The position numbers were made by a program, and so were the translations under genes. Source: Promicromonospora thailandica (GTDB taxonomy: Bacteria; Actinomycetota; Actinomycetes; Actinomycetales; Cellulomonadaceae). From it: DNA of 64,000 bases. Below the pieces are notes generated by a model that had not been told where the DNA came from, did not search any database, and worked only from the letters and a program-made list of their open reading frames with translations. How positions within the stretch are numbered: position 1 is the first letter of the stretch; every line of letters starts with the position of its first letter. Positions 1 to 15,957 of the stretch are shown piece by piece. The DNA lies in assembly GCF_024171955.1 (NCBI RefSeq), contig NZ_JAMTCS010000018.1:1-64000 (forward strand), written 5' to 3'.

Positions 1-426
1 GCCCAGGCCGGTGGCGATGTCGGTGACGGCCTTGTCGTGCACGTGGCGGTCGAACAGGAGCTGGCGGTCCTCGTCGGCCAGGTCGGCCAGGGCGGTGCGC
101 AGCATGGTGACGTCGGCCTGGCGTTCGGTGTCCAGCTCGGCGCCGTGGGCCGGTGGGGTCAGGTCCTCGAGGGTGTCGTCCTGGACGGGGGTGGTGCGGC
201 CGGCTTCGCGGGTCATGGAGATGGCTTCGTTGACCGCGGCGCGTCGCCAGTAGGGGGCGGGGTCGGTGATGGTGGCGCCGGTGGTGTGCAGGCGGACCAT
301 CTTCTCCAGGGCGCGGCTGGTGGCTTCCTCGGCGTCGATGCCGGGTACGCGGGCGGCGACCGAGCGCACGACGTTCCGGCGATGCACCACCCAGTCGTCG
401 ATGCGGAGGTCACCGGTGGTCGTCAC
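1..426 (-). CDS. Sigma-70 family (ECF-like) RNA polymerase sigma factor, C-terminus cut by window edge
   Basis: About 142 residues are visible. The GTG start at 426 has a GAGGGG ribosome-binding site about 9 nt upstream; an in-frame ATG at 450 is possible but has no good site. The N-terminal half resembles region 2 of ECF sigma factors (VVRSVAARVPGIDAEEA, then DPAPYWRRAAVNEAI). The end of the visible part looks like the start of region 4 (LADLADEDRQLLFDRHV, then DKAVTDIATGLG, a helix-turn-helix entry). It would direct RNA polymerase to a specific promoter set. No anti-sigma gene is visible on this side, and the rest lies beyond base 1. The family call rests on motif resemblance only; the subgroup cannot be set. 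Confidence 0.6.
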   Translation of the reverse strand, partial: MTTTGDLRIDDWVVHRRNVVRSVAARVPGIDAEEATSRALEKMVRLHTTGATITDPAPYWRRAAVNEAISMTREAGRTTPVQDDTLEDLTPPAHGAELDTERQADVTMLRTALADLADEDRQLLFDRHVHDKAVTDIATGLG

Positions 427-543
427 GCGGCCTTGCCCCTCTCTGCGCATAGTGTCCCGTTTTGACTCGCTGGCCAATGATCGCACCAGGTCTCCGCTTT
501 CGCACATGTCGTCGGAATTGGACATCGGTCGTTTCACCGGCGC

Positions 544-765
544 TCACCTGCGGCCGCTCGAGAACGCGGTGGACACGGCGTCGAGGCCCTCCGGGCCGGC
601 CGTCGCGTGGATCACCGCGAGGGCGACCTCGCAGGTCGCGGCGATGAGATCGCTCGCTCCCCAGGCGTCGGCGAGCCGGTACAGCTTCACGGCATCGCCC
701 TCGGCATACGCACGCAGATATTGGGCGCCCAGACGAACGAGTTCGGGGTGCTCGGTGTGTTCCAT
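544..765 (-). CDS. Small uncharacterised protein, 73 aa
   Basis: The ATG at 765 is chosen because AGGGGGG lies just upstream; longer in-frame extensions have no such site. The protein is soluble and mildly acidic. It begins MEHTEHPELVRLGAQYLRA and contains a helical stretch ending in ATAGPEGLDAVSTAFSSGRR. There is no signal peptide or membrane segment. It is co-directional with the downstream sigma factor gene (118 nt gap), so the two may be co-transcribed; a small partner or anti-sigma-like role is conceivable but unsupported. I do not recognise the family. Confidence 0.55.
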   Translation of the reverse strand: MEHTEHPELVRLGAQYLRAYAEGDAVKLYRLADAWGASDLIAATCEVALAVIHATAGPEGLDAVSTAFSSGRR

Positions 766-793
766 GCCCCCCTGACGCGCGAGCTCTCCGGAT

Positions 794-968
794 GTCACAG
801 CACTTGAGGAAATTTCTTCGATTGCTCCCGTCCTGTCCGGTTGGGCCCCGTCTGACGGCCTGTTGGGGACGGTAGATGCCTCGGGCAGCAGTTCGCCGTG
901 CATCCGGATCCCGTTTCCGGTAAGCCTGTGAACAGGCCGTATGAATCTGCATCGAGAAGTGCTGTGAC
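794..968. repeat. Widely spaced 12-bp inverted repeat upstream of the small gene
   Basis: GTCACAGCACTT (794-805) recurs perfectly in inverted orientation as AAGTGCTGTGAC (957-968). The two copies sit in the gap before the minus-strand small gene. They could be paired operator half-sites for one regulator, or relics of a larger element. Function is inferred only. Confidence 0.4.
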
Positions 969-1009
969 TTCCGGGACGTGCGCGCGTCTGAGCTGTGACG
1001 CGGACGAAG

Positions 1010-1149
1010 TTCGGACCTCGCTGGGGGCGGGCCGAGCTCCGGCGCGTCGGCGGGACCCGTGGTTCGGAGTGCGCTGGGGGCACGCCGAGCCACGGGCTCC
1101 CGTCCACCGGCGCGGGCGCCGGCTCGGACCTCGCTGGCGGCGGACCGAG
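1010..1149. repeat. Three 27-nt imperfect hairpin repeats
   Basis: Copies lie at 1010-1036, 1063-1089 and 1123-1149. Each starts (T/C)TCGGA, has a GCTGG core and ends CCGAG, so each can fold as a short stem-loop: in copy 3 CTCGGACC faces GGACCGAG with one mismatch. Spacings are 53 and 60 nt. They end about 40 nt before the leuS leader promoter. Outside these repeats and the wide inverted pair, 766-1187 holds nothing I can identify. Confidence 0.5.
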
Positions 1150-1187
1150 CCGGTGCTCGCCGTCGGGCCGCCCACCCCGCCCGGACC

Positions 1188-1216
1188 TTTACCCGGCTGC
1201 CCGGCCCCCGTATCGT
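1188..1216 (+). promoter_or_regulatory. Promoter of the leuS leader transcript
   Basis: A -35-like TTTACC (1188-1193) and a -10 TATCGT (1211-1216) are separated by 17 bp. The first base of the leader ATG (1223) is 7 nt after the -10 box, so transcription would start at the A of the ATG. The leader peptide would then be translated from a leaderless mRNA. Confidence 0.6.
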
Positions 1217-1222
1217 GGTGCC

Positions 1223-1252
1223 ATGCGCACCGCACGCTCGCTCCTTACCTAG
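1223..1252 (+). CDS. Leucine-codon leader peptide MRTARSLLT of the leuS attenuator
   Basis: A 9-codon ORF runs ATG to TAG with adjacent Leu codons CTC and CTT near its end; CTT is rare in this GC-rich genome. It has no ribosome-binding site but begins where the predicted transcript begins. Its stop codon touches the 5' arm of the first leader hairpin. This is the classic layout of ribosome-mediated attenuation, in which stalling at Leu codons when charged tRNA-Leu is scarce changes folding downstream. The layout is visible; the mechanism is inferred. Confidence 0.6.
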   Translation: MRTARSLLT

Positions 1253-1294
1253 CCGTACCGGTCCCGCCCCTCGATCGGGCACACCCGGTACGGC
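1252..1294 (+). promoter_or_regulatory. First leader hairpin (pause/antiterminator region) upstream of leuS
   Basis: GCCGTACCGG (1252-1261) pairs perfectly with CCGGTACGGC (1285-1294). The 5' arm starts at the last base of the leader stop codon, so a ribosome stalled on the Leu codons would cover or free it. The alternative antiterminator pairing could not be fixed by eye. Confidence 0.55.
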
Positions 1295-1295
1295 C

Positions 1296-1319
1296 GCCCC
1301 TCCCTGCGAGGGGCTTTTT
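1296..1319 (+). terminator. Intrinsic terminator (attenuator) in front of leuS
   Basis: GCCCCTC (1296-1302) and GAGGGGC (1308-1314) form a 7-bp stem with a 5-nt loop, followed directly by TTTTT. It is one of the few hairpins in the window with a true U-tract, and it lies 38 nt before the leuS start. This supports conditional termination rather than an end-of-gene signal. Confidence 0.75.
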
Positions 1320-1357
1320 CGTGCCCGGACCCGATCGACGCACCGGAGCGAGAACCC

Positions 1358-3244
1358 ATGAGCGACATCCACGCCACCACTCAGGCCACTGCCGCCGACC
1401 CCACCGGGCCGGGCGCGTTCGAGGCCGCCGACGACGGCACCCGCCCCCGCCGCTACCTGCTGACGATGTTCCCGTACCCCTCGGGGGACCTGCACATGGG
1501 TCACGCCGAGGTGTTCGCGATCACCGACGTCGTGGCCCGCCACTGGCGGGCCAAGGGCTTCGACGTGCTCAACCCCGTGGGCTGGGACTCGTTCGGCCTG
1601 CCGGCCGAGAACGCAGCGATCCGTCGCGGCGAGCACCCTGCCGTGTTCACCGAGGCGAACATCGCCACCCAGGCGGCGTCGATCCGGCGCTACGGCGTCT
1701 CGTTCGACTGGTCGCGGCGCCTGCACACCCACGAGCCCGGGTACTACCGGTGGACGCAGTGGCTGTTCGCGCGGCTGCACGAGCGTGGCCTGGCCTACCG
1801 GGCCGAGGCGGACGTCAACTGGTGCCCCGCCGACCGCACGGTGCTGGCCAACGAGCAGGTGGTCGACGGCGCGTGCGAGCGCTGCGGCACCACCGTCGTG
1901 TCCCGCAGCCTGACGCAGTGGTTCTTCCGGATCACGGCGTACGCGGACCGGCTGCTGGACGACATGTCCCTGCTGGAGGACGGCTGGCCGCCGCACGTGC
2001 TGACCATGCAGCGGAACTGGATCGGCCGCGAGCCGGGTCCGCACGGCCCGACCTACCGCCTGCACGACTGGCTGGTGTCGCGGCAGCGCTACTGGGGTGC
2101 GCCGATCCCTGTCGTGCACTGCCCGGCCTGCGGGGAGGTGCTGGTGCCGGACGACCAGCTGCCCGTGGAGCTGCCCCACCTGGAGGGTGCGGCGCTGGTG
2201 CCGGGGGACGTCTCGCCCCTGGCCGGGGCCCGGGACTGGGTGCGGACGACGTGTCCCCGCTGCGGCGGGCCGGCCGAGCGGGACACGGACACCATGGACA
2301 CGTTCGTGGACTCGTCCTGGTACTTCCTGCGCTACCTGTCGCCCGGGTACGACGGCGGCCCCTTCCGCCGCGAGGACGCCGCCCGCTGGATGCCCGCCGC
2401 GCTGTACGTGGGCGGCGTGGAGCACGCCACCATGCACCTGCTGTACGCGCGGTTCGTCACCAAGGTGCTGTACGACATGGGCCTGGTGCCGTCGCCCGAG
2501 CCCTACGCCCGGCTGCTGAACCAGGGGCAGGTCATCAACCGGGGCAAGGCGATGAGCAAGTCGCTGGGCAACGGCGTCGACCTGGCGACGGAGCTGGACG
2601 CGCACGGCGTGGACGCCGTCCGCCTGGCGATCCTGTTCTCGGGGCCGCCGCAGGACGACGTCGACTGGGCCGACGTCTCGCCCGAGGCGATGCGCCGGTT
2701 CCTGACCCGGGCCCTGCGGCTGGCGGAGACGCCCGGCCGGGCCGGAGCCGCCGGCGCGGCGGGCGACCCGGCCGCCCTGCGCCGCGCGGTGCACCGCGCC
2801 GTGCACGAGGTCGACGAGCTGGTCGAGGACGGGCGGTTCAACGTGGCGATCGCCCGCCTGATGGAGCTGGTGGGGGAGGTCCGCCGGTCGGCGGTGGCGG
2901 GGCCGGAGCGCGCGGAGGCGGTCGCGGCGGTCGCCGTGCTGCTGAGCCTGTTCGCCCCGCACGCCGCGCAGGAGCTGTGGGAACGCCTGGGCCGGACGAC
3001 GCCGGTCGCGGACCGGCCGTGGCCCGAGGTCGACCCGGCACTGCTGGTGGTGTCCGACGTCGAGGCCGTGGTCCAGGTGGGCGGCAAGGTCCGGGACCGG
3101 CTGACGGTGGGCGCCGACGTCACCGCCGAGGCGCTGGAACGGGCGGCGCTGGCACGGCCCGCCGTCGCCCGCGCGGTCGGGGACCGGGTGGTGCGGCGGG
3201 TCGTGGTGCGGCCGCCGCACCTGGTCAGCGTGGTGCTGGGCTGA
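1358..3244 (+). CDS. leuS: Leucyl-tRNA synthetase lacking the CP1 editing domain (628 aa)
   Basis: A class Ia aminoacyl-tRNA synthetase charging tRNA-Leu. The ATG at 1358 follows GGAG by 10 nt. Visible in order: HMGH (HIGH motif, residues 46-49), [13 protein letters not shown], a Cys-containing zinc module (CPAD to CERC, about 156-176), MQRNWIGR (217-224), then after about nine residues [15 protein letters not shown], a second Cys pair (CPAC...CPRC), [19 protein letters not shown] (KMSKS motif, 398-402), the anticodon-binding region and a C-terminal module ([11 protein letters not shown]). In ordinary bacterial LeuRS (about 800-970 aa) the CP1 editing domain of roughly 185 residues sits between RNWIGR and YRLRDW; here it is absent. 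The leucine-specific insertion before KMSKS is also missing. The protein should charge tRNA but cannot proofread norvaline or isoleucine in the usual site. A canonical LeuRS may exist elsewhere in the genome. Confidence 0.93.
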
Positions 3245-3250
3245 GGGGGC

Positions 3251-4090
3251 CTAGCCGGCCGTGGGGCCGCCGTCCTCGTCGAGCCTCGTGCGCAGCGCGC
3301 GGAGCTCGTCGAGGATCTCCCGGTTCTGCGCCGCGAGGGCGTCGAGGCGCTCGTCCTTCTGCGCGTCGTCCTGGCGCTCCTCCTCGGAGATCTCCTCCAT
3401 GCCGCTCACGATCACCGCGATGAAGAGGTTCAGCACCGCGAAGCTGACCACCAGGATGTAGAGCACGAAGAAGATCCAGGCGGAGGGGTGCTCGGTCATC
3501 ACGGCGCGCGCGATGTCGGGCCAGGCCTCGCCCGTCATGGCCTGGAACAGCGTGAACAGCGTGGTCCACAGGTCGCCGAAGTACTCGGGGGCCGTCCTGC
3601 CGAACAGGCCGGTCGCGATCACCGCGGACACGTACATGACCAGCACGAGCAGCGCGCCGACGGCGCCCATGCCCGGCACCGCGCGCAGGAGGCCGTCGAC
3701 CACCCGGCGCAGCGCCGGTACCGCCGAGACCACCCGCAGCACCCGGAGCACGCGCAGCGCACGCAGCGCGGACAGGGACTCCGTGGCCGGCAGCAGCGCG
3801 ACGCCGACCACGGCCAGGTCGAAGACGGCCCACGGGTCGCGGAAGAACCGCCAGCCCGTGGCCACGAGCCGCAGCAGGAGCTCGACCACGAAGAAGGCGA
3901 GCATGACGTGGTCGACGGTGCGCAGCACCTCCAGTGCCGCTCCGGTCACCATCGTCTCGGCGCCGAGCACGAGGGCGTTGGCGAGGATCACGCCGAGCAC
4001 GAGCCGGGTGAACCAGCGCTGCTCGAGGAACGCCCGGAGCCGGTCCCGCCAGGTTCGCCGCCCTGCGAGCGCGCCGATCTCCTGGTCCAT
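3251..4090 (-). CDS. Single-domain voltage-gated cation channel (NaChBac/Nav-like)
   Basis: A 279-aa six-helix ion transport protein of the plasma membrane, expected to work as a tetramer. S1 lies near residues 28-46. S4 is clear, with Arg every third residue (R110, R113, R116, R119). The pore loop is FQAMTGEAWPD (183-192), aligning with the TLESW filter of bacterial sodium channels but reading T-G-E-A-W. S6 (about 204-230) is followed by an acidic, Glu-rich coiled coil, typical of bacterial Nav C-termini. ATG at 4090 has GAGGAG about 10 nt upstream. It converges on leuS with only 6 nt between stops. Ion selectivity (Na versus Ca or non-selective) cannot be read from the sequence. Confidence 0.85.
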   Translation of the reverse strand: MDQEIGALAGRRTWRDRLRAFLEQRWFTRLVLGVILANALVLGAETMVTGAALEVLRTVDHVMLAFFVVELLLRLVATGWRFFRDPWAVFDLAVVGVALLPATESLSALRALRVLRVLRVVSAVPALRRVVDGLLRAVPGMGAVGALLVLVMYVSAVIATGLFGRTAPEYFGDLWTTLFTLFQAMTGEAWPDIARAVMTEHPSAWIFFVLYILVVSFAVLNLFIAVIVSGMEEISEEERQDDAQKDERLDALAAQNREILDELRALRTRLDEDGGPTAG

Positions 4091-4295
4091 GCGTCGTCAT
4101 CTCCTCACGTGCCCGGGACCGCCCGGCCCCGGTCTCCCCCACTCGTGCCCGGGCGAACTATAGCCCGTGGACGTCATGACCCTCTTGTACGCAATGTCCC
4201 GATATAACCGTGATTCGGCGGGTCCGGTGGCAAGTCGGAACGATCAGTGCTGGAGTAGAGGTCAAGCAAGCCGAACAACTCTGGAGGAAAACGCC

Positions 4296-4562
4296 ATGGG
4301 CTTCTGGGCCTTTCTCATCCTCGGACTGATCGCGGGCGTCATCGCCCGAATCATCCTCCCGGGCAAGCAGCCGGGCGGGTTCTGGGTCACGCTGCTCCTG
4401 GGCGTGCTCGGCGCCATGCTCGGTGGCTGGCTCGGCGGGCTTCTCTTCAACGTCAGCTTCGACGAGTTCTGGTCGTGGCAGAGCTGGCTGTTCTCGGTGA
4501 TCGGCGCGATCATCGTCATCCTGATCGTGCAGGCGATCTTCGGCCGGCGTCAGAAGGCTTGA
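4296..4562 (+). CDS. GlsB/YeaQ/YmgE family small membrane protein
   Basis: 88 aa with three hydrophobic segments: MGFWAFLILGLIAGVIARI, a Gly-rich segment with LLGVLGAMLGGWLGG, and SVIGAIIVILIVQAIFG. Family hallmarks are the LPGKQPGGFW loop and the GxxGAxxGG pattern. Members are general-stress or transglycosylase-associated inner-membrane proteins of unclear biochemistry. The start is set by TGGAGG about 7 nt upstream. Its stop overlaps the next gene's TTG start, so the two are translationally coupled. Confidence 0.85.
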   Translation: MGFWAFLILGLIAGVIARIILPGKQPGGFWVTLLLGVLGAMLGGWLGGLLFNVSFDEFWSWQSWLFSVIGAIIVILIVQAIFGRRQKA

Positions 4563-5482
4563 TCGCAGCATCCGGCGGCCGCGCCGTCACCGTCGTCCTC
4601 GTGACGGCGGTGATCGGCGCGGCCGCCGTCGCGTGCACGGCGGGCGGCCCGGCGACGTCGTCCACCGCCGGCCCGGTGCCCGACGACGTCGTCGCGCACC
4701 TCTCCGTCGACGTGGCCCAGGGACGCGAGCAGTACGCCGCGCGGGAGGTCCGGCTCGAGGTGGCCAACGACTCCGCCGAGACGCTGACGCTGCTGTCGGG
4801 AGCGCTGGACGCCGACGGCTTCGGGCCGTCGCACCCGGCCAAGGAGGGGCGCGAGCTGGTGCTGCGGCCGGGGACGACGCGCGCCGTGTACGTCGGGCTG
4901 GGCGATCCCGTGTGCACGGGGGCGACGCGGCGTCCGGCGTCCGCCACCGTGACGCTCGCCCTCGGTGCGGGCGACGGCCGGGGTCCGGCCACCGACGTCG
5001 TCGTCGACGAGGTGGGCGATCCCGTGGGGCATCTCGCGCGCAACCACGAGGCCGACTGCGCCCGGGCCGCCGTCGCGGCGGGAGCGCACCTGTCCGTGGA
5101 CCGCGAGGTCCGCGTGGAGACGCGCGACGGGGTGCCGACCGCGCTGGTCACCCTGCGTGTCGAGCCGGTGGACGGCGGTCCGCGGGTGACGATCGACCGG
5201 ATCGCCGGGACGACCCTCATGAGCAACCCCGAGCCGGCGGACGGAGCCTCCGGCTGGACGGGCCGGGACCTGGCGGGGCAGAGCTCCGGCGTCGTGGTGC
5301 TCGCCGTCGTGCCGGCCCGGTGCGACGTGCACGCCGTGGCCGAGGACAAGCGCGGCACGTTCCTGCCCGTGTCGGCGACGGTCGACGGCGATCCCCAGCC
5401 CACGGTCCACGTGCCGATGCCTGATGCCGCGCGCTCCGCGTTCTACGACTTCGTCGGAGACCACTGCGCCTGGCCGGAGTGA
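4559..5482 (+). CDS. Predicted lipoprotein of unknown function (307 aa)
   Basis: The TTG at 4559 overlaps the previous stop (TTGA) and has AGAAGG just upstream. It gives a short n-region with Arg, a hydrophobic stretch (VVLVTAVIGAAA) and a lipobox ending VAC, as expected of a type II signal peptide. The mature part is beta-rich, with two repeated halves that each begin with an AHLSVD segment (AHLSVDVAQGREQYAARE and AHLSVDREVRVETRDG). That suggests two Ig-like or DUF4232-like modules. Four Cys in the mature region could form disulfides. Expected to sit on the outer face of the membrane; role unknown. Confidence 0.6.
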   Translation: MIAASGGRAVTVVLVTAVIGAAAVACTAGGPATSSTAGPVPDDVVAHLSVDVAQGREQYAAREVRLEVANDSAETLTLLSGALDADGFGPSHPAKEGRELVLRPGTTRAVYVGLGDPVCTGATRRPASATVTLALGAGDGRGPATDVVVDEVGDPVGHLARNHEADCARAAVAAGAHLSVDREVRVETRDGVPTALVTLRVEPVDGGPRVTIDRIAGTTLMSNPEPADGASGWTGRDLAGQSSGVVVLAVVPARCDVHAVAEDKRGTFLPVSATVDGDPQPTVHVPMPDAARSAFYDFVGDHCAWPE

Positions 5483-5497
5483 TCCGACCAGGCGCAG
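5464..5497. terminator. Convergent-gene hairpin
   Basis: CTGCGCCTGG (5464-5473) pairs with CCAGGCGCAG (5488-5497); the loop contains the lipoprotein stop codon. There is no U-tract. It lies between two convergent genes and may end both transcripts. Confidence 0.5.
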
Positions 5498-5516
5498 CGA
5501 GGGAGTGCGGGGTGCG

Positions 5517-6251
5517 TCAGGCGACGCGGACGAACGTCGGGCTGTTCTGCCACATCTCGGTGTAGCGGACGGGCATGCCGGCGGCCCAGGCCTCGATGAT
5601 CATGCCGTCGCCGGCGTAGATGGCCACGTGGCCCGGCGTCCAGACGATGTCGCCGGGCTCGGGGTAGGTCACCTGGTAGCCGGCGCCGAGCAGCGCACCG
5701 GACGAGTGCGGGAGCGAGTAGCCGAGCTGCGCGTACACGTACTGGACCAGGCCCGAGCAGTCGAAGCCCGCGGACGGCGAGGCGCCGCCCAGCACGTACG
5801 TGATGCCGAGGTAGTTGAGCGCGATGTTGACGGCCTGCGTGCCGACCGGGACCGGGTCCGGCGCGTCGACCGAGACGACGGCGGGGCCGTCGCCCTTCTC
5901 GCCCTCGGCGCCTGCCGAGGCCCCGAGGACCTCCATCTCCATCGGCATCTTCGCGTCGACGGGGACGGTCACGGTGGGGGCGGCGGCGAGGGACTGCTTG
6001 GCCACGGCGGTGAGGGACTGCAGGTCCGTCGCGTTGAGCTTGGCGGTCTTGACGTCCGTCTTGAGGTCCATCGCGGGCGCCGCGTGGGCGGTGGTGGCGA
6101 TGGTCGAGATGAGGACGCCGCCTGCGGCGGCGGCGAGGGCGCCACGGCGGGCCACGGTGCCTGCGTTCTCGGTGGCGGTACGAGCGAGGATGGTCAGCGG
6201 AGTCTGAGCGGGCCGGCTGTCGCGATGCCGGCCGCGGGTGGAGTTCGTCAC
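5517..6251 (-). CDS. Secreted NlpC/P60 peptidoglycan hydrolase under a c-di-AMP riboswitch
   Basis: 244 aa. The GTG at 6251 has GGAGA 8 nt upstream. A long, Arg-rich twin-stretch N-terminus leads to an AAAAGGVLISTIATTAHA signal region. A linker of about 80 residues precedes the C-terminal NlpC/P60 domain, with catalytic Cys in GFDCSGLVQYVY, LPHSS, and His in PGHVAIYAGDGM. Such enzymes cut D-glutamyl-diaminopimelate bonds in the cell wall. A ydaO riboswitch sits directly upstream, so expression should respond to cyclic di-AMP, as known for cell-wall hydrolases in actinobacteria. A paralogue lies at 8775-9521. Confidence 0.88.
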   Translation of the reverse strand: MTNSTRGRHRDSRPAQTPLTILARTATENAGTVARRGALAAAAGGVLISTIATTAHAAPAMDLKTDVKTAKLNATDLQSLTAVAKQSLAAAPTVTVPVDAKMPMEMEVLGASAGAEGEKGDGPAVVSVDAPDPVPVGTQAVNIALNYLGITYVLGGASPSAGFDCSGLVQYVYAQLGYSLPHSSGALLGAGYQVTYPEPGDIVWTPGHVAIYAGDGMIIEAWAAGMPVRYTEMWQNSPTFVRVA

Positions 6252-6263
6252 CTAATGTCTCCT

Positions 6264-6445
6264 GTACCGCCTACGAGGTCAGCTGTCGGGTTCGGGTAGG
6301 AGTACTCACCCGGCCGCACGGCTACTGGGGGGTTCCGTCCGGCTTCACCCCGAGGACGACGATCCTGCTGTCGCCCGGAAGTGGGTCCCCCGCTCCTGTC
6401 TTGAACGTCTGGTCATGAGCCGGTGACAGGACTCGGCGTCCGACT
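6264..6445 (-). promoter_or_regulatory. ydaO/yuaA c-di-AMP riboswitch
   Basis: Reading the minus strand, conserved blocks appear in order: CGCCGAGTCCTGTCA (near 6440), GGGGGACCCA (near 6390), GGGGTGAAGCCGG (near 6345), AACCCCCC, TACTCCTACCCGAACC (near 6295), then CCCGACAGCTGACC and TCGTAGGCG (6268-6290). The last two blocks are near-invariant in actinobacterial ydaO RNAs. The 3' end is only a few nt before the ribosome-binding site of the NlpC gene. No U-tract terminator is evident, so control could be at elongation or translation. Confidence 0.85.
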
Positions 6446-6613
6446 CACGACTCCACCGATGCGGTGGAGCAGAAGTCAAAGTACACACCTTCACCGAAAA
6501 AGTCACGATCGGGTTACGCATTACGGTCTGACCCAACGAAGGCGCAGATTTACGCCCTTCCGGTCTTCTTGCGTTATGACCGACTTCACGTAAATCCGCT
6601 ACGGTGCGGCGGC

Positions 6614-7507
6614 ATGGGCGACAGCGAGCATCGGATCTCCGCCTGGTGGGTGGTTCCCCTCAGTGCACTCGCCTGGTGGGCGGGAGGCTTCCTCCCGTGG
6701 ATCGCGCAGGTGTCGTACGAGGTCACAGGCCTGGCCGAGGGCGCGACGGCGGGAGTGCGCGGATTCCTCCCGCTGCCCTTCACCGGTGACGACGCCGTGG
6801 TCGGCCTCGTCGTGATGGCGCTCGTCGGCGGTCTTCTCGCGGGTGCGCTGGCGCGCGTCCCGGCGTCGGCCGGTGCGGGCGCGGGTGCCGCGATCGGCGG
6901 CGCGCTCCTCGCCATGGCGGCCACCGGCGGCTCGTCCTGGTGGCTCGTGACGCGCGGCGGCCTGCCGGACGACGGGGCCCCGCTCGGCATGCTCGTCGTC
7001 ACGGGCGTCGCCGGCCTGGTCGGCCTCGGCGCGGGCCTCCTGGCCGGGCTCGGCCCCGCCCCGCTGCGCGGGCTCGCGCTCGCGCTGCCCGTGGTGCTCC
7101 TCGACGCCTGGTTCTGGGGCTTCGTGCCAGGGCATCCCGTGGCACCCGTCGGCACCTGGTGGGTCTTCGCCGTCGCGCTGGGCATCGCGTTCGGTCTTGC
7201 CGTGGACAGCAGGCCCATCGAGCTGCTCGGGTGGCTGCCCACCGCGGGTGCGGTGTGGGTGCTCCAGGCCGCCGGACCGGCGCTGCTGGCCGTCCAGGAG
7301 AACATCTGGCCCGGGTCGCCGCTGTCCGAGGACCCGCTGTCCGCGGTGGGTGTCGTCTGGAGCGAGATGGCCCCGGCGGCGATCGCCTCCGAGGGGCACC
7401 AGCTCGGCGCCTGGGTGGTGGCCCTCCTGCTGGGCGCCGCCGTCGCGGCACTGCGCCTCTCCCGGGAGGCGTCGGACGAGGCCGAGCTCTCCGAGGCGTG
7501 GGCCTGA
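6614..7507 (+). CDS. Polytopic membrane protein of unknown function (297 aa)
   Basis: About eight hydrophobic segments rich in Gly, Ala, Leu and Trp, with short charged loops and a C-terminal acidic tail (SREASDEAELSEAWA). Conserved-looking features are WWAGGFLPWIAQ near the N-terminus and an AWFWGFVPGHPV segment mid-protein. The ATG at 6614 lies 8 nt after TACGGT, so the mRNA may be almost leaderless. It is divergent from the riboswitch-controlled NlpC gene. I see no transporter signature and do not recognise the family. Confidence 0.7.
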   Translation: MGDSEHRISAWWVVPLSALAWWAGGFLPWIAQVSYEVTGLAEGATAGVRGFLPLPFTGDDAVVGLVVMALVGGLLAGALARVPASAGAGAGAAIGGALLAMAATGGSSWWLVTRGGLPDDGAPLGMLVVTGVAGLVGLGAGLLAGLGPAPLRGLALALPVVLLDAWFWGFVPGHPVAPVGTWWVFAVALGIAFGLAVDSRPIELLGWLPTAGAVWVLQAAGPALLAVQENIWPGSPLSEDPLSAVGVVWSEMAPAAIASEGHQLGAWVVALLLGAAVAALRLSREASDEAELSEAWA

Positions 7508-7643
7508 GGGTCGCAGCTGATTGCGATTGGGTAAATTTTCACCCCCGCGGCTCCCTCGAGTCTGTCCGGGCCTAGTCCGATACTCCTAGGTTTGCCCCAG
7601 TTCGGGGGCAATCCAGCCCTCGTGCGACCACTGGGGGCTTGAT

Positions 7644-8705
7644 ATGAGAAGGAAGAAACTCGTCGACGCCGCGGGCACCGCGGCGCTCGCCGTGGCCGTG
7701 CTGCTGGCGATGGCGCCGGGCGCGCACGCCGCCACCAGCGACCCGCTCCGGGGCAAGCAGTGGGGCCTGGACCAGGTCGACGCGGAGGCCGCCTGGCCCG
7801 TCACCACCGGCAAGGGTGCGGTGGTGGCGGTGGTCGACACCGGTGTCGATCTCGAGCAGCCCGACCTCGCGGGGCAGCTGTTGCCGGGTGCCACCTTCAC
7901 GGGGTGCGCGGACGTCCGCCCGTGCGGCAACGGGGACTTCCGGGGGCCGGACGGCAGGAACGACGGCGACGAGCACGGGACGCACGTGGCAGGCATCGTC
8001 GCCGCCGCGGCGGACAACGGCATCGGTGTCGCGGGGGTGGCGCCGGGCGCCAAGATCCTCCCGGTCAAGGTGCTCGAGGCGGGCTCCGGCTCGTCGCAGG
8101 ACATCGCGGACGGCATCCGGTGGGCCGCGGACCACGGCGCCGACGTCATCAACCTCTCGCTCGGCACCGCGCCGGGCGGGCAGCTGCTGACGATCATCGG
8201 CATCGACACGCTGATGCGGGACGCCATCACGTACGCGCGGCAGCAGGGCGCGCTCACCGTGGCGGCGGCCGGCAACTCCTCGACGCCGCTGTGCAGCGAC
8301 CCGGCGTTCACCAGCGTCGCGATCTGCGTGGGGGCCACCGACTCGGCGCGCATCCACTCCTACTACTCGGAGCTGCCGATCAAGCTCGACCTGAAGAGCG
8401 TCTCGGCGCCCGGCGGTTCGGGCGGCCTGACGGGCTGCGACGGCGACGTCTGGTCCACCGTGCCGGTCGGTACCGGGTCCGACACGTGCGGCGGCGGCAG
8501 CTACGACTCCTACGCGGGCACGTCCATGGCCACGCCGCACGTGGCCGGCGTGGCCGCGCTCCTGTTCAGCCAGGGCCGGAGCGTGACGGAGGTGGAGAGC
8601 GCCATCCTCCACACCGCGCGCGACCCGCTGCTGGGCCTGGTCGGGGTCTGGACCCCGCTCTACGGCTACGGCATCGTCGACGCGGCGGCGGCCGTGGCGT
8701 ACTGA
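7644..8705 (+). CDS. Secreted S8 family (subtilisin-like) serine protease, 353 aa
   Basis: The signal peptide (MRRKK, then an Ala/Leu core ending AHA) is followed at once by the catalytic domain; there is no I9 propeptide, unusual for a secreted subtilase but seen in mycosins. The catalytic triad is visible: Asp in VAVVDTGVD (about residue 65), His in DEHGTHVAG (about 111), Ser in AGTSMATPHVAG (about 294), with the oxyanion Asn in AAAGNSS. Four to six Cys could form disulfides. No C-terminal membrane anchor is present, unlike mycosins, so it is probably released or wall-associated. Substrate unknown. Confidence 0.88.
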   Translation: MRRKKLVDAAGTAALAVAVLLAMAPGAHAATSDPLRGKQWGLDQVDAEAAWPVTTGKGAVVAVVDTGVDLEQPDLAGQLLPGATFTGCADVRPCGNGDFRGPDGRNDGDEHGTHVAGIVAAAADNGIGVAGVAPGAKILPVKVLEAGSGSSQDIADGIRWAADHGADVINLSLGTAPGGQLLTIIGIDTLMRDAITYARQQGALTVAAAGNSSTPLCSDPAFTSVAICVGATDSARIHSYYSELPIKLDLKSVSAPGGSGGLTGCDGDVWSTVPVGTGSDTCGGGSYDSYAGTSMATPHVAGVAALLFSQGRSVTEVESAILHTARDPLLGLVGVWTPLYGYGIVDAAAAVAY

Positions 8706-8722
8706 CGGCCGGACCGCTCGCG

Positions 8723-8764
8723 TGTCAGACGCACAGGTCGCCCGAGCGGCCTGTGCGTCTGACA
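8723..8764. terminator. 15-bp hairpin between convergent genes
   Basis: The arms (8723-8737 and 8750-8764) are perfectly complementary over 15 bp, containing GACGCACAGG and CCTGTGCGTC, with a 12-nt loop. There is no U-tract. The same stem core recurs at 15026-15062. Likely a bidirectional terminator. Confidence 0.6.
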
Positions 8765-8774
8765 GGTGGAGGGA

Positions 8775-9521
8775 TCAGTAGGGGCGGATATAGACCGCGT
8801 AGTCCTGCCACTGGGCGGTGTGGCGCACCGGGGTGCCGTAGTTCGCGGCCTCGACGACCATGCCGTCGCCCGCGTACAGCGAGACGTGGCCCTGGGTCCA
8901 CACGATGTCGCCGGGGATGGGCGACGCGACCTGGTAGCCCGCCGACACCATCGAGGACGACGAGTGCGGCAGGTGGATGCCGAGCTGGGCGTACACGTAC
9001 TTGATCAGCCCCGAGCAGTCGAAGCCCGAGGACGGCGACTCGCCGCCGTACGTGTAGGCGATCCCGATGTACTGCATGGCGATCGCGACGGCCTGGGCGC
9101 CGATCGAGCCGTCGGACGCGTAGTCCGGCGTCGCGGGCGCCTCGGTCTCCGTGGCCGTCGCGGCCGGCTCGGTGTACGAGGTGGTCTCCACGACAGGCTC
9201 GGGCTCGGGCTCCGGAGCGGGGGTGACCTTGACGGCCTTGCTCTCGATCCGCAGCTTCGCGTCGCTCGCGACCTGCACGGCGGGTGCGGTCGGCACCTCG
9301 TGACGGGTCTCCTGCGTCAGCGTCGTCTTGTCGACGCTCGCCAGGCGGTGGGAACCGTCTCCCGCGACGGCGTGTGCGCTGGGTGCGAGGGCCGTCGCAA
9401 GAAGTCCGGACGATGCCGCGATCAGCGCGCCCGAGCGGGCGGCCGTACGGGTCACGGTCATCAGGGGAGTGCTGGGAGCATGAACGGCGCGGTGTCGGCC
9501 GCGTCGGACGGTGGTACTCAC
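8775..9521 (-). CDS. Secreted NlpC/P60 peptidoglycan hydrolase (paralogue)
   Basis: 248 aa. The GTG at 9521 is preceded by GGAGAA about 9 nt away; a longer reading to 9602 lacks a site. A signal sequence (SGALIAASSGLLATALA, ending AHA) precedes a Pro/Glu-rich linker (PAPEPEPEPVVETTSYTEP) and a C-terminal NlpC/P60 domain with Cys in GFDCSGLIKYVYAQLG, LPHSSSS and QGHVSLYAGDGM. The catalytic domain closely resembles the 5517-6251 paralogue. Unlike that gene I see no ydaO riboswitch in its 5' region (9522-9800), so the two differ in control. Confidence 0.87.
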   Translation of the reverse strand: MSTTVRRGRHRAVHAPSTPLMTVTRTAARSGALIAASSGLLATALAPSAHAVAGDGSHRLASVDKTTLTQETRHEVPTAPAVQVASDAKLRIESKAVKVTPAPEPEPEPVVETTSYTEPAATATETEAPATPDYASDGSIGAQAVAIAMQYIGIAYTYGGESPSSGFDCSGLIKYVYAQLGIHLPHSSSSMVSAGYQVASPIPGDIVWTQGHVSLYAGDGMVVEAANYGTPVRHTAQWQDYAVYIRPY

Positions 9522-9783
9522 CGAAGTTCTCCAAGTCGCCGGTCTCGCGGGCCCGTACCCGTCGGAGGAATGGGGCCCGTGGCTGCGCCTCCGGTGGCGC
9601 AACGGATCCGACGCTACATACGGGTCACCACTCTGTCTCGATCAGATAACGGTTGTTGTGAAGTATCGAGGCGCGCAAAGCCCGGGTAACTTTTCTCCCG
9701 AATGCGTTTTCGCAGCGTAAGGGTCAATCTTGGGCCAGAAATGACGCTCTGGCGGCCTTGTGGAAAGGTCGCAGGAAATGATG

Positions 9784-9811
9784 TGACACGCCGGTAGCGA
9801 GCGGCGTGTCA
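9784..9811 (-). terminator. Hairpin overlapping the stop of the SRPBCC gene
   Basis: TGACACGCCG (9784-9793) pairs with CGGCGTGTCA (9802-9811) around an 8-nt loop. It contains the minus-strand stop codon and probably ends that transcript. The remainder of 9522-9783 shows no gene. Confidence 0.5.
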
Positions 9812-10270
9812 GCCCTTTTCCCGGGCCAGGCGCTCCGCCTCGGCCCTGAGACCCGCCAGCTCGGCGTCCACCAGCTCGCGCATCCGGGAGCCGAGCGCGA
9901 GGTTGGTCAGCCCGGCCAGCATCCCGCTCTGGGCCACGACGAGCGTCACGTCGCACGCCTCCGCGCCGTCGCTCCCGGCGCCGGGTAGGGGGGAGACGAG
10001 GTGGGCCGCCCCTGTGCGGACACCGGGCGTGCTGCTCGACCACGAGAAGCTGCGCCCGTCGGTCAGGCCGTCCACCTCCCACGTCGCGCGCGGCAGGCCG
10101 GGCTGCTCGATCTCCACCCGGGCGCCGAGCGCCAGCGCCGAAGCGTCGAGGAGCGTCACGCGCGTCATCGACCGCGTCCAGGAGGGCATGCGCTCGACGT
10201 CGGACAGGACCTGCCACACGACGACGGCGGGAGCGTCGACGCGTGCGCTGGTGCGATAGGCGTGGGCCAC
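9809..10270 (-). CDS. SRPBCC (START/polyketide cyclase-like) family protein
   Basis: 153 aa with the helix-grip pattern: an N-terminal strand (AYRTSARVDAPAVVVWQVLSD), VERMPSWTRSMTRV, a GARVEIEQPGLP turn, and a long C-terminal helix (RMRELVDAELAGLRAEAERLA). Such proteins bind hydrophobic ligands in a cavity; many are annotated as polyketide cyclase/dehydrase without evidence. The start is GTG at 10270. It is divergent from the AlkZ-like gene with a 48-nt gap. Confidence 0.75.
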   Translation of the reverse strand: MAHAYRTSARVDAPAVVVWQVLSDVERMPSWTRSMTRVTLLDASALALGARVEIEQPGLPRATWEVDGLTDGRSFSWSSSTPGVRTGAAHLVSPLPGAGSDGAEACDVTLVVAQSGMLAGLTNLALGSRMRELVDAELAGLRAEAERLAREKG

Positions 10271-10306
10271 CGCCCCAGGCTACGGGCTCGTGTCGGTGCC
10301 GTTCCG

Positions 10307-10312
10307 TATCCT
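10307..10312 (+). promoter_or_regulatory. -10 box of a leaderless promoter
   Basis: TATCCT is followed by exactly 6 nt and then the ATG of the AlkZ-like gene at 10319, so transcript and ORF should start together. No convincing -35 was seen. Confidence 0.5.
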
Positions 10313-10318
10313 CGCCGC

Positions 10319-11428
10319 ATGGCCCCTCACCGGCTCACCGTCCAGCAGGCCCGGCGCGTCATGCTGCGCGCCCAGCTGCTGGAGGCGCACCGCCCGGTGG
10401 ACCTGGTGCACCTGGTGGAGGACCTCACGTTCCTCGCGGTGGACCCGACGTCGGCGGTGGCGCCCGCCGTGGACCTCGTCGCCTGGTCTCGCCTGGGCGG
10501 CTCGTACTGGCCCGGCGCGGTGGACGATGCGGTCGCCGACCGCATGCTGTTCCAGCTTCGCGGCACCGTGCGGTCGATGGGCGACCTGCCCCTCTACCTG
10601 GAGCAGATGGCCCGCTGGCCGCAGAACGAGACGATGCGGCAGTGGCTCGCCGACAACGCCGCGTTCGAGCGCGAGGTGCTGGCCCTGGTCGAGGCTGAGG
10701 GGCCGGTGCTCGCCAAGGATGTGCCCGATACCGCCCGCGTGCCGTACACGTGGGGCGCCGACGGCTGGAGCAGCCGCCGCAGCGTGGCCGAGATGCTCGA
10801 GGCGCTCAACATGCAGGGCAAGCTCGCGGTCGTCGGGCGCAAGGGCCGGCAGCGGCTCTGGGACCTCGGCGAGCGCGTGTACCCGCGCGTCGACCCGGTG
10901 CCTCTCGAGCAGGCGCTCGAGGAGCGGACCGGCCGCCGGCTGGCGGCCGAGGGCATCGCGCGGCGCCGGGTGCAGGGCCGGTCGGGGGACGGCGCCTGGT
11001 GGGTGGACCTGCCTGGCGAGCCGGTGGAGGTCGAGGGTGTCGACGGCGAGTGGCGCGTGGACCCCGAGCTGCTGGAGCACGCCGACGACCCGTTCGAGCC
11101 CCGCACCGCCCTGCTGTCCCCGTTCGACGCGACCGCCGCCGACCGGGCCCGTCTCCTGGACCTCTTCGGCTACGAGTACGTGCTGGAGATGTACAAGCCC
11201 CGGGCCGCGCGGCGCTGGGGCTACTTCGCGCTGCCGATCCTGCACGGCGAGCGGTTCGTGGGAAAGCTCGACGCCAAGGCGGACCGGAAGAAGGGCGTGC
11301 TGGACGTCTTCGCGGTGCACGAGGACCTGCCGTTCGACGGCGCCACCATGGACGCCGTGCACGCCGAGATCGAGGCGCTCGCGACCTGGCTCGGGCTGGG
11401 CCGCGTCGACTACGCCCGGGACGCGTGA
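10319..11428 (+). CDS. Winged-helix DNA-binding protein, AlkZ/YcaQ (HTH_42) family, catalytic Gln apparently missing
   Basis: 369 aa with tandem winged helices: LTVQQARRVMLRAQLL at the N-terminus, a second HTH around SSRRSVAEMLEALNMQGKL, and the conserved C-terminal module with DPFEPRTALLSPFD and ALPILHGERFVGKLD. Family members are DNA glycosylases that unhook alkylated or cross-linked bases using a QxQ or QxD motif. Here the corresponding position reads LAVDP (about residues 42-46), so the Asp is kept but Gln appears to be Ala. Activity is uncertain; it may act on another lesion or only bind DNA. It follows a leaderless promoter. Confidence 0.75.
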   Translation: MAPHRLTVQQARRVMLRAQLLEAHRPVDLVHLVEDLTFLAVDPTSAVAPAVDLVAWSRLGGSYWPGAVDDAVADRMLFQLRGTVRSMGDLPLYLEQMARWPQNETMRQWLADNAAFEREVLALVEAEGPVLAKDVPDTARVPYTWGADGWSSRRSVAEMLEALNMQGKLAVVGRKGRQRLWDLGERVYPRVDPVPLEQALEERTGRRLAAEGIARRRVQGRSGDGAWWVDLPGEPVEVEGVDGEWRVDPELLEHADDPFEPRTALLSPFDATAADRARLLDLFGYEYVLEMYKPRAARRWGYFALPILHGERFVGKLDAKADRKKGVLDVFAVHEDLPFDGATMDAVHAEIEALATWLGLGRVDYARDA

Positions 11429-11451
11429 GCATCACCCGACCACTATCTGGT

Positions 11452-11462
11452 TGAAACTTTCA
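11452..11462. promoter_or_regulatory. Small palindrome (possible LacI-type operator) upstream of the GNAT gene
   Basis: TGAAACTTTCA is a 5-1-5 palindrome between two genes. It resembles the GAAA...TTTC operators of LacI-family sugar regulators, but it is short and no sugar gene is adjacent. Confidence 0.25.
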
Positions 11463-11489
11463 CGAATCCCGGGCGCGTCGACAGGCGGC

Positions 11490-11495
11490 TATCAT
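11490..11495 (+). promoter_or_regulatory. -10 box of a leaderless promoter
   Basis: TATCAT lies 7 nt before the GTG start of the acetyltransferase gene. Confidence 0.45.
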
Positions 11496-11502
11496 CCGCG
11501 AC

Positions 11503-12006
11503 GTGACATCGATGACGATCGACCTGGTGCCCGTCGACGACGACGTGCTCGAGGCGCTGCTCGCGGTAGCCGTGGCCGAGGCCCGGCCCGACGAGGTGCT
11601 GCCCCCGGCGCCCGGTGTGGCAGCGCCCGGGTGGACCGCCCCGCACCACGACGCGTTCCGCGAGTACCACCGGCGGTGCCGGGTGAACCTGCACGCGCCG
11701 GTGCCCGAGGTGACCTGGGCGGTCACGGCCGACGGCCGGATCGCGGGCGCCGCGCGCCTGGCCCTGGTCGACGACGACCCGGGGGCCCGGGAGGTCGGCC
11801 TCTGGCTCGGCCGGTCGCATCGCGGGCGGGGCATCGCGGGCGAGGTGGCCTACTGGGCCATGGCGGCGGCGCGGACGATGGACGCCGAGCGGCTGGTCGC
11901 CCGTCCGGCGCCGGGCGACGCCCCGGCCCGGCGGTCGCTCGAGCGCATCGGCTTCGAGCTCGCGGAGCGCGACGGCACGCTCGTCGGCACCCTCGCTCTG
12001 CCCTGA
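11503..12006 (+). CDS. GNAT family N-acetyltransferase
   Basis: 167 aa. The GNAT core is visible: a central strand pair (VTWAVTADGRIAGAARLALV), the acetyl-CoA pyrophosphate loop LGRSHRGRGIAGEVAYWAM (the RxxGxG/A pattern), and the terminal SLERIGFELAERDGTLVGTL typical of the RimJ/RimL branch. It would acetylate an amine, perhaps a protein N-terminus or small molecule. The GTG at 11503 is used, with an in-frame ATG three codons on; translation is probably leaderless. Confidence 0.8.
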   Translation: MTSMTIDLVPVDDDVLEALLAVAVAEARPDEVLPPAPGVAAPGWTAPHHDAFREYHRRCRVNLHAPVPEVTWAVTADGRIAGAARLALVDDDPGAREVGLWLGRSHRGRGIAGEVAYWAMAAARTMDAERLVARPAPGDAPARRSLERIGFELAERDGTLVGTLALP

Positions 12007-12093
12007 GGTCGCGGCCACGGGACGTCATGGACAAAGCGGGCATCTCAGCAAAGACTGTGCCGGTTCGTCCGGTCGTCGTCGTGAGGAGAGCTC

Positions 12094-13284
12094 GTGGAAA
12101 CCCTGGTGCTGGATGCTGCCGGCAGGGCGCCGTTGGAGGAGGTCGCGCGGCTGCGTGCGCGGGGTCCCGTGACCCGGGTGGGGCTGCCGGGCGGCGTGGA
12201 GGCGTGGGCCGTCACGGACCTGGCGCTGCTGCGCCCGATGCTGGTGGACCCGCGGATCTCCAAGGACTCGCACCAGCACTGGACCGCGCTCGTCGACGGT
12301 GAGATCACGCGGGAGTGGCCCCTGTTCACGTGGGTCACCAGCAAGTCCATGTTCAACTCGTACGGTGCCGAGCACCGGCGGCTGCGCAAGGTGGCCGCAC
12401 GCGCGTTCACGGCGCGCCGCACGCGGGCCATGCAGCCGAAGATCGAGGCGGCGACGGCGGGTGCGCTGGACCGGCTCGCGGACGCGGGGGCCGACGGCGC
12501 GGTGGTGGACCTGCGCGAGCAGTTCGCCTACCCGATCCCGATCGAGGTCATCTGCGACCTGCTCGGCGTGCCGGACGAGCACCGCGACGACATGCGGCAC
12601 TACGCCGACGTGCTCATGGACACGAGCGCGACGGCGGAGGACGCCCTGGCGACCCAGATGGCTCTGCGCGCGCTGATCGTCCAGCTCGTCGAGGCCAAGC
12701 GCGACGCGCCGGGCGAGGACCTGACCAGCGTGCTGGCCGCGGAGCTCCCGGCCCTGGAGGCGGCGGGCACCGCCCAGCTCGGCCTGATCGCCGGGCACGA
12801 GACCACGGTGAACCTGCTGGCCTCGGCCGTGCGGCTGCTGCTCACCCACCCGGACGCGCTGGCCGCGGCACGGGCGGGCGAGGTCACGTGGGCGGCGGTG
12901 GTCGACGAGACGCTGCGCGTCGCCCCGCCCGTGGTCTACATCCCGCTGCGCTTCGCCGTGGAGGACCTCGAGCTCGGCGGCGTGCGGATCGCCCAGGGCG
13001 ACCCGATCATCGCGGTGTTCGGCGCACCCGGGCGGGATCCCGGCCTGCACGACCGGCCGGAGGTCTTCGACCCGGCCCGTGCGGACCACACCCATCTCGC
13101 GTTCGGCGCGGGGGCCCACCACTGCCCGGGGGAGCCCCTCGCCCGGCTGGAGGCCGAGATCGCCCTGCCCGCCCTGTTCGAGCGCTTCCCCGGCCTCCGG
13201 CTCGCCGACCCGGACGGCGACCACGGCGCGGTGCCCGGCTTCGTCGCGAACGGTCCGGTCCACCTCCCGGCACTGCTGTCCTAG
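12094..13284 (+). CDS. Cytochrome P450 (complete motif set)
   Basis: 396 aa, soluble bacterial P450. The GTG at 12094 has GAGGAG about 6 nt upstream. The C-helix contains EHRRLRK. The I-helix oxygen-binding motif is AGHETT (about residue 232), the K-helix ExxR is ETLR (about 272), and the heme loop is FGAGAHHCPGEPLAR with the thiolate Cys near 343. No redox partner gene is adjacent. It converges on a second P450 with only 47 nt between stops. Substrate unknown. Confidence 0.93.
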   Translation: METLVLDAAGRAPLEEVARLRARGPVTRVGLPGGVEAWAVTDLALLRPMLVDPRISKDSHQHWTALVDGEITREWPLFTWVTSKSMFNSYGAEHRRLRKVAARAFTARRTRAMQPKIEAATAGALDRLADAGADGAVVDLREQFAYPIPIEVICDLLGVPDEHRDDMRHYADVLMDTSATAEDALATQMALRALIVQLVEAKRDAPGEDLTSVLAAELPALEAAGTAQLGLIAGHETTVNLLASAVRLLLTHPDALAAARAGEVTWAAVVDETLRVAPPVVYIPLRFAVEDLELGGVRIAQGDPIIAVFGAPGRDPGLHDRPEVFDPARADHTHLAFGAGAHHCPGEPLARLEAEIALPALFERFPGLRLADPDGDHGAVPGFVANGPVHLPALLS

Positions 13285-13305
13285 TCGACGAACGAGCCGA
13301 CGAAC

Positions 13306-13333
13306 GAGCCGGGCCGACGGCCCGGCCCGGCTC
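13306..13333. terminator. Hairpin between the convergent P450 genes
   Basis: GAGCCGGGCC (13306-13315) pairs with GGCCCGGCTC (13324-13333). It includes the start of the minus-strand stop codon. No U-tract. Confidence 0.55.
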
Positions 13334-14615: not shown

Positions 14616-14724
14616 GGCTGCATCCGACCACACCGACCCCGTGCACGGGAAGGGTTCCCGGTATCGACTCGAACTCGGACCTCGAAGTGGTGTGACATCG
14701 GGGCGGTCCGCGCGTCCTGAGGGC

Positions 14725-14976
14725 ATGACACAGACGACGCAGACCAGGCGCACGACCTACGGCCTCGCCTCCAACCCGTCGGAGTGGGCCGCGCACCGCC
14801 GCGCGGTCGTCTTCTCCGTGCACCGCCTGTACCCCGGTGTGGACGCCGAGCGGGCCGCGACCGAGGGGCTCGGCGAGCTGTGCCGCCAGATCGTGGTGCA
14901 CGGTGCGGTCGACCGGCCCGCCGTGGTGTGGTGCGAGGCCGCCGTCGCGGCGGCCGCCCGGATGCGCGCCGCATGA
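14725..14976 (+). CDS. Small uncharacterised protein, 83 aa
   Basis: The ATG at 14725 follows GAGGG closely. The protein is helical: NPSEWAAHRRAVVFSVHRLY, then ATEGLGELCRQIVVHG and AVVWCEAAVAAAARMRAA. It has two Cys and no membrane segment. It sits head-to-head with the ExxW P450, so they may share control. Not recognised. Confidence 0.5.
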   Translation: MTQTTQTRRTTYGLASNPSEWAAHRRAVVFSVHRLYPGVDAERAATEGLGELCRQIVVHGAVDRPAVVWCEAAVAAAARMRAA

Positions 14977-15025
14977 ACCGGCGGTGGTGCGTCCCCGCCC
15001 CGGCCCTGCGGCCGCACCCGCGGCT

Positions 15026-15062
15026 GTCGGACGCACAGGCCTCAGGGACCTGTGCGCCCGAC
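15026..15062. terminator. Hairpin with the same stem core as 8723-8764
   Basis: A 14-bp stem with one A-C mismatch (15026-15039 / 15049-15062), containing GACGCACAGG and CCTGTGCG, with a 9-nt loop. Again placed between convergent genes and without a U-tract. Confidence 0.6.
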
Positions 15063-15069
15063 GCGAAGG

Positions 15070-15576: not shown

Positions 15577-15767
15577 CAGGTTTCGGCTTCCGGTCGTTCG
15601 GAGGCCGCCGCCGGCGCTCGCCGTCGGCACGTTCGTGCACGACGACGCCACGGTCACCTCGGCAGGGAGGGCACCGGTCCGGCGGGCGGCAGGGCAGGGG
15701 ACGACGCCGCGCCCGCCCTCCGACACACGACCGGCGCACGCACGACGGCGTGGCTGCCGGGCCGGTC

Positions 15768-15848: not shown

Positions 15849-15957
15849 CTCTCGCTCCTGTGTCCGGTGGAGACGGCCGGGGTGATTCGCCACCCGGCCG
15901 ACCTCTCGATGCTATGCCACGGAGGGCGAGAAGGGCACGTGCATTAGCCCACACCCG

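Follow-up and report, generated by a model that had tools for sequence, protein, structure and literature searches.

Editing by leucyl-tRNA synthetase (LeuRS) is usually seen as indispensable outside reduced parasites. The parasite Mycoplasma mobile is not known to have more than one LeuRS, and that enzyme lacks the CP1 editing domain; natural loss of editing extends to another parasite group, presumably the microsporidia, in which the editing domain carries a deletion, and to our knowledge none of these editing-deficient enzymes is a second copy. Loss of editing in parasites is described as accompanied by misincorporation at Leu codons (PMC7373986), and the M. mobile enzyme is described as devoid also of the leucine-specific insertion (PMC5059758). 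Second LeuRSs include AgnB2, the plasmid-borne accessory enzyme of agrocin 84 self-immunity, which is described as lacking the leucine-specific insertion but retaining the editing domain (PMC5059758), and the archaeal duplicates, namely LeuRS-I of Sulfolobaceae, whose CP1 domain is described as disrupted (PMC9437257), and the LeuRS2 of Halobacteria, which charge poorly or not at all. Attenuators of leuS, consisting of a Leu-codon leader peptide, hairpins and a terminator before the gene, were predicted in 2005 in two Streptomyces species, and in the LEU element of leuA, described in the same source, a run of Leu codons is able to pair with the Shine-Dalgarno region (PMC1262725). CP1-less LeuRS, accessory LeuRS and predicted leuS attenuators are each already known; new in the case described here is the combination of a CP1-less, accessory enzyme with a leader, which has evolved repeatedly and is found in actinobacteria with large genomes. 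No report of a CP1-less second LeuRS in actinobacteria was found in the portions of the open-licence literature that were searched.

The window (the whole analysed stretch of 64,000 nucleotides) carries at positions 1358-3244 of the forward strand an ORF without internal stop codons that encodes a LeuRS of 628 aa, termed here LeuRS2. The protein scores 671.9 bits against the TIGR00396 (leuS_bact) profile, above the curated cut-off of 548.4, Pfam matches its catalytic and anticodon-binding domains (Anticodon_1 included), the HMGH and MSKS motifs and the zinc cysteines are all present, and 152 of the 155 columns that are invariant across 16 ordinary LeuRSs are kept. Pfam detects no match to the LeuRS editing domain (PF13603) in this protein, and in the alignments the segment between MQRNWIG and HDW is a linker of 12 residues (residues 224-235, positions 2027-2062, forward strand), where ordinary LeuRSs of this clade have 193-206 residues. 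LeuRS2 is an intact LeuRS in which a short linker replaces the CP1 editing domain. Its AlphaFold2 model (mean pLDDT 89.4, pTM 0.86) was compared with known structures by Foldseek; ordinary LeuRSs rank first, and the M. mobile LeuRS (PDB 3ziu) is the match of equal architecture (3ziu_B, TM-score 0.89 by target, rmsd 3.1). In separate searches, the M. mobile enzyme gave one continuous match over residues 27-617 and AgnB2 a two-piece match. Architecture and fold are those of the M. mobile kind of CP1-less LeuRS, but LeuRS2 shares a GC-rich genome of 5.4 Mb with another LeuRS and has a leader in front of it, and its nesting among CP1-bearing actinobacterial LeuRSs, in a tree without M. mobile, argues for a separate loss of CP1. 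From the archaeal duplicates, likewise second LeuRSs, it differs in that the core motifs are kept and CP1 is entirely gone. No match to an anti-phage defence family was found.

The other LeuRS of the same genome (G000), termed here LeuRS1, lies on contig 4 in a frame of 1106 aa and contains the sole PF13603 match found in this genome. The earlier note was right to expect a full-length LeuRS beside the CP1-less one, and an editing domain supplied in trans, which it had named as an argument against its reading, was not found outside LeuRS1 in the PF13603 search of this genome. Of 16 genomes with a CP1-less copy that were tested, 15 also have a CP1-bearing LeuRS (13 by a full PF13603 match, G255 and G423 by a separate look at LeuRS1); in the remaining one, G469, LeuRS1 is present only as fragments at contig ends. 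The two enzymes are of deeply different types: the zinc cysteines of LeuRS2 are absent from LeuRS1 of this genome, and the leucine-specific insertion of LeuRS1 is absent from LeuRS2. The missing insertion, which the earlier note had reported together with the missing CP1, is real but a separate feature. It is lacking in all 18 LeuRS2-type rows compared, and because these include CP1-bearing relatives, a tie between the two losses is rejected; judging from these rows, the absence of the insertion is older than the loss of CP1 and independent of it. Relatives of LeuRS2 that retain CP1 occur widely across the class, enzymes of Nocardioides and Thermobifida among them. A search for tRNAs in the same genome gave 51 matches, and the 13 stretches that were typed contain five tRNA-Leu species. 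One of them (G000:C5:91669-91744, loci L219 and L228) is a tRNA-Leu(UAA) of 76 bases, i.e. of class-I size and without the long variable arm. As a dedicated partner of LeuRS2 this tRNA was rejected, because similar sequences (compared by sequence, anticodons aside) occur in all 23 family genomes searched, with or without LeuRS2.

LeuRS2 is not an assembly error, because among 200 family genomes sampled CP1-less matches occur both in the window's genus (g1; 12 of 13 genomes) and in the next genus (g3; one of two), with a dN/dS of about 0.24. A gap or assembly deletion at the CP1 junction, the other objection raised in the earlier note, is ruled out by the same junction in 13 assemblies, and its description of a LeuRS without CP1 that is not a fragment holds, given the short linker, the retained motifs and the profile score. 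The 11 genus copies have a median dN/dS of 0.244 and a maximum of 0.289 (55 pairs), close to the 0.250 (15 pairs) of CP1-bearing relatives, and the g1 and g3 proteins keep 149-153 of the 155 invariant core columns; at the level of sequence, the catalytic and tRNA-binding parts are shown to be intact and under purifying selection. The 11 genus genomes compared share the gene order around LeuRS2 with each other and with G002, and in the window's genus LeuRS2 converges with a channel gene and has no same-direction partner gene. Within the genus, LeuRS2 has been lost from G077, is interrupted in G097 by an insertion at another site of the protein, and ends at a contig end in G128. In the family sample the copies in G073 and G085 are broken or truncated-looking, and in Micromonosporaceae that of G255 is shorter (557 aa). 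A clean empty site was not found in G077, where the adjoining channel gene is absent too.

In Micromonosporaceae, among the matches listed, 13 of 250 genomes possess a CP1-less LeuRS2 (that of G423 ends at a contig end and those of G457 and G255 are shorter) and 12 others possess a CP1-bearing one, while in a class-wide sample of 394 genomes CP1-less LeuRSs were present, among the matches listed, only in G000 and in G469, a member of another family. The earlier note had known of such enzymes from M. mobile and from this locus, a picture that proved too narrow, as they have arisen repeatedly in Actinomycetota. A tree was calculated with CP1 left out (62 rows, 591 columns; 26 CP1-less rows and 36 others, with G128 and many CP1-bearing copies left out), and the program flagged some long branches and unusual composition in it. 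On this tree parsimony requires 8 changes of CP1 state (bootstrap range 8-8), at least 6 of them forced by starred branches, and a single origin is rejected (one CP1-less clade, p-AU 4.6e-42). All four outgroup rows have CP1, so we read the changes as losses: CP1 was probably lost about eight separate times in related Actinomycetota. The CP1-less rows have linkers of 2-17 residues, 13 accessory CP1-bearing rows have a corresponding segment of 160-189 residues, that of G256 is down to 115 (a pattern search found no second catalytic motif in it), and other accessory rows have a full-length CP1 (204 residues in g23, 202 in g22, 193 in Nocardia and Actinophytocola). Such a series in one enzyme type, from full through shortened to absent, with some eight apparent losses, amounts to a natural experiment on the need for proofreading. 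Relative to the core, CP1 shows 1.39-1.94 times the non-synonymous difference in four of five accessory CP1-bearing sets and 0.94 times in the fifth (four of the five, and three of the four raised ones, being sets of 1-3 pairs each), compared with 0.91, 1.05 and 1.25 in three main-LeuRS sets. The Arg of the RDW motif (tree column 198) is replaced by His in 18 of the 26 CP1-less rows versus none of the 36 others, by five changes on the tree, but the association is not significant by independent pairs.

The stretch upstream of LeuRS2 is strongly conserved in g1 and g3 and has two parts of a ribosome-mediated leucine attenuator, a leader ORF containing tandem Leu codons and a terminator between leader and gene (all features are on the forward strand). 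Position and conservation point to promoter-like hexamers TTTACC (1188-1193) and TATCGT (1211-1216), spanning 1188-1216 with a 17-base spacer, which would put the transcription start on the ATG of the leader or close to it; most g1 leader rows have identical or similar hexamers, and G006 and G002 have none. The leader ORF, delineated by alignment of leaders, is MRTARSLLT-stop (1223-1252) with the tandem Leu codons CTC CTT. Conserved folding and covariation support hairpin A (1252-1294, arms 1252-1261 and 1285-1294) and a hairpin T that resembles an intrinsic terminator (arms 1296-1302 and 1308-1314) followed by a run of five T (1296-1319 in all). The Shine-Dalgarno region GGAGCGAG (1345-1352) is a perfect 8-bp complement of leader positions 1237-1244, so that in the window the Leu-codon region is predicted to pair with it, as in the leuA LEU element, with the caveat that CU-rich Leu codons complement Shine-Dalgarno sites by nature and that the start codons were chosen by rule, some of them doubtful. 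Positions 1320-1341, 3' of the terminator, are conserved and show complementarity to hairpin A (loop and 3' arm), which allows a putative alternative long helix in read-through transcripts.

Tandem Leu codons are found in 11 of 12 g1 and g3 leaders (L093 has Pro-Leu), and the hairpins in all 13 g1 and g3 loci examined. Relatives possess leaders of the form M..LLLxRPR-stop at the same place, and the pattern LLx0-4PR-stop is present in 29 of 158 LeuRS upstream regions (some loci counted twice), compared with a single one of 3160 dinucleotide shuffles. Those 29 do not include the leader of the window, which, like the other g1 leaders, does not fit the pattern; the g1 leaders are tied to the LLx0-4PR-stop leaders by position and shared hairpins. 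Twenty leaders, eight of them g1 or g3 sequences, were aligned; they had been selected for an unambiguous hairpin and T run, and G006, whose contig ends near the leader, was excluded here and from the folding set. In this alignment 95.6% of the cells of the two hairpins are paired. Six pairs and 28 cells are changed on both sides, and none of 500 shuffles was as high on four of five covariation measures, the fifth (further pair types, 10 vs a shuffle mean of 12.9) being not above the shuffles. Slid control structures gave at most one two-sided pair, in a comparison that favours the proposed structure, which was drawn from the same 20 sequences. All 20 leaders have CTT as the final Leu codon of the run. 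A covariance search of 12 leader loci revealed no T-box among the matches to E 1, and neither a T-box nor another Rfam leader was found at LeuRS2.

A covariance model built from the leaders found one copy in G000, at LeuRS2, with an E value that is circular, the window being part of the model. With the filters off, 19 kb around LeuRS1 gave no leader match up to E 1, and in the window the next best match scores 16.9 bits vs 89.4 for the LeuRS2 leader. Other weak copies may exist in this genome, because the genome-wide first look, which scored 149 of 19387 candidates, missed the LeuRS2 leaders of G288 and G469, which a targeted search finds (E 1e-9 and E 1e-7, respectively). In G200, G431, G389, G459, G441 and G288 the genome-wide leader match adjoins LeuRS1, G287 has one leader at each LeuRS, and G077 has no match better than E 0.003. 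The CP1-less LeuRS2 of the Actinoplanes type has no leader; the leader there is at LeuRS1. In G027, a g3 genome without LeuRS2, the same leader lies on the contig and strand of LeuRS1 (G027:C65:47749-47823, locus L262), about where LeuRS1 should start, as if it had changed owner.

From this anatomy and conservation we infer that the leader may regulate LeuRS2 in response to leucyl-tRNA. With a ribosome modelled on the Leu codons or on the stop codon, constrained folding of 12 leaders left the terminator at a probability of at least 0.94 in 58 of 60 leader-by-ribosome states; it revealed no classical antiterminator, that is, the LeuRS2 leader showed no mutually exclusive structure dependent on ribosome position. 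The predicted accessibility of the Shine-Dalgarno region likewise showed no clear change with ribosome position and no clear opening on stalling. The parts of the LeuRS2 leader are those of the Streptomyces leuS attenuators, but here the leader stands at an accessory CP1-less LeuRS, with none found at LeuRS1, and folding gave no transcription switch.

The codon usage of LeuRS2 is skewed: its 57 Leu codons comprise 56 CTG, one CTC and no CTT, compared with CTG shares of 42/91 in three other window genes, 53/74 in LeuRS1, and 266/509 in 18 composition-selected ORFs from window 1-20000 (Fisher p 7.4e-14 vs LeuRS2). Counts for the other genomes, from which L001, L002, L006 and L007 were omitted because their longest frames may be wrong, give CTG 580/617 in the 11 genus copies. 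Leader-bearing LeuRS2 of Micromonosporaceae use CTG in 105/106 (G287, G288) and 65/68 (G267) cases versus 369/452 and 165/203 in leaderless ones, which are from different genera; the bias is weak in the leader-bearing g7 (215/345), g23 (140/209) and g21 (155/202). CTC and CTT are both read by one tRNA (anticodon GAG). Thus, the codons that the LeuRS2 gene avoids belong to the isoacceptor that its leader would sense, as expected if LeuRS2 must be translated while the GAG tRNA is uncharged. Against this expectation stand the weak bias in g7, g23 and g21, the scarcity of CTT in other window genes as well, and the presence of CTG next to CTT in most leaders of the genus.

On balance, we lean towards the view that LeuRS2 is an active accessory LeuRS that lost CP1 and serves as an inducible back-up. 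The trigger would be a shortage of charged tRNA-Leu, caused by leucine starvation or by a blocked or failing LeuRS1; ribosomes would then stall at the Leu codons of the leader, stalling would relieve termination and/or free the LeuRS2 start site, and the LeuRS2 made in consequence would keep leucylation going. In a reserve enzyme kept beside an editing LeuRS1, proofreading may be dispensable or even a liability, which could explain why CP1 was lost again and again. A reserve LeuRS called up on under-charging of tRNA-Leu is the most economical account, and among the functional ideas of the earlier note the back-up when leucylation fails is the one that the upstream Leu-codon leader strengthens. 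In the Actinoplanes type the leader is absent, so there the idea draws on second-copy status alone. The leader, which apparently ties a CP1-less copy to the supply of leucyl-tRNA, makes the ideas of back-up, drug tolerance and mistranslation directly testable, and, if confirmed, CP1-less enzymes would be naturally insensitive to editing-site LeuRS drugs.

A related role, possible though clearly less probable, is tolerance to natural LeuRS inhibitors: LeuRS2 would be kept for resistance, with the loss of CP1 removing the target site (the one that oxaboroles use), and would work like AgnB2, an agrocin-resistant LeuRS, induced by the same failure of charging. Second LeuRS copies are patchy across genomes, LeuRS genes including agnB2 are found on plasmid records (no CP1-less one among the 30 listed out of 282 records, all 30 being two-piece matches), and an inhibitor would be expected to trigger a leader that responds to failed charging; however, no antibiotic gene was found among eight neighbour proteins scanned, seven of them from window 1-8702 (the scanned neighbours are an ion channel, NlpC/P60, a subtilase and four proteins without family), and we know of no natural inhibitor directed at CP1. 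This role is a special case of the back-up reading and cannot be separated from it here. It appears unlikely that shortage of leucyl-tRNA switches actinomycetes to an editing-free LeuRS as an evolved, repeatedly reinvented form of conditional mistranslation, in which norvaline, isoleucine and other analogues are adaptively admitted at Leu codons when leucine is scarce. Such regulation would agree with the missing CP1 and the failure to find an editing domain in trans, with a leader that suggests expression in leucine shortage, with the repetition of CP1 loss, and with the mistranslation described elsewhere on loss of LeuRS editing (PMC7373986), but relaxed constraint explains the CP1 losses equally well, and pre-transfer editing or a stricter synthetic site could preserve fidelity.

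We regard as similarly improbable a use outside translation, in which LeuRS2 would supply a different pathway, one that can do without proofreading, with leucyl-AMP or Leu-tRNA; a role of this kind has been proposed for the archaeal duplicates. In its favour are those duplicates (LeuRS-I and LeuRS2), described as having altered activity (PMC9437257), and an FAD oxidoreductase that adjoins LeuRS2 in several Actinoplanes-type genomes; on the other hand, the conserved core and the anticodon-binding domain are kept, the genus LeuRS2 faces a convergent channel gene instead of a same-direction partner, and the logic of the leader fits the supply of translation. That LeuRS2 is a redundant, decaying copy with no selected role is disfavoured and seems very improbable: the loss in G077, the defective-looking copies in G073 and G085 and the short protein of G255 would suit decay, but the low dN/dS across the genus, the gene order kept in 11 genus genomes and G002, and the leader hairpins at every g1 and g3 locus examined speak against it.

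The surroundings of LeuRS2 differ between lineages. In Actinoplanes-type genomes it adjoins an FAD oxidoreductase, e.g. L205:6583-7905 and the neighbours in L191, L193, L194, L196, L197 and L206, or has nearby genes that resemble those of histidine utilisation, as judged by eye from the beginnings of the proteins; the one FAD oxidoreductase scanned has weak similarity to tryptophan halogenases. In the window, a c-di-AMP (ydaO) riboswitch at 6253-6417 on the reverse strand lies directly upstream of the NlpC/P60 gene (5517-6251, reverse strand).
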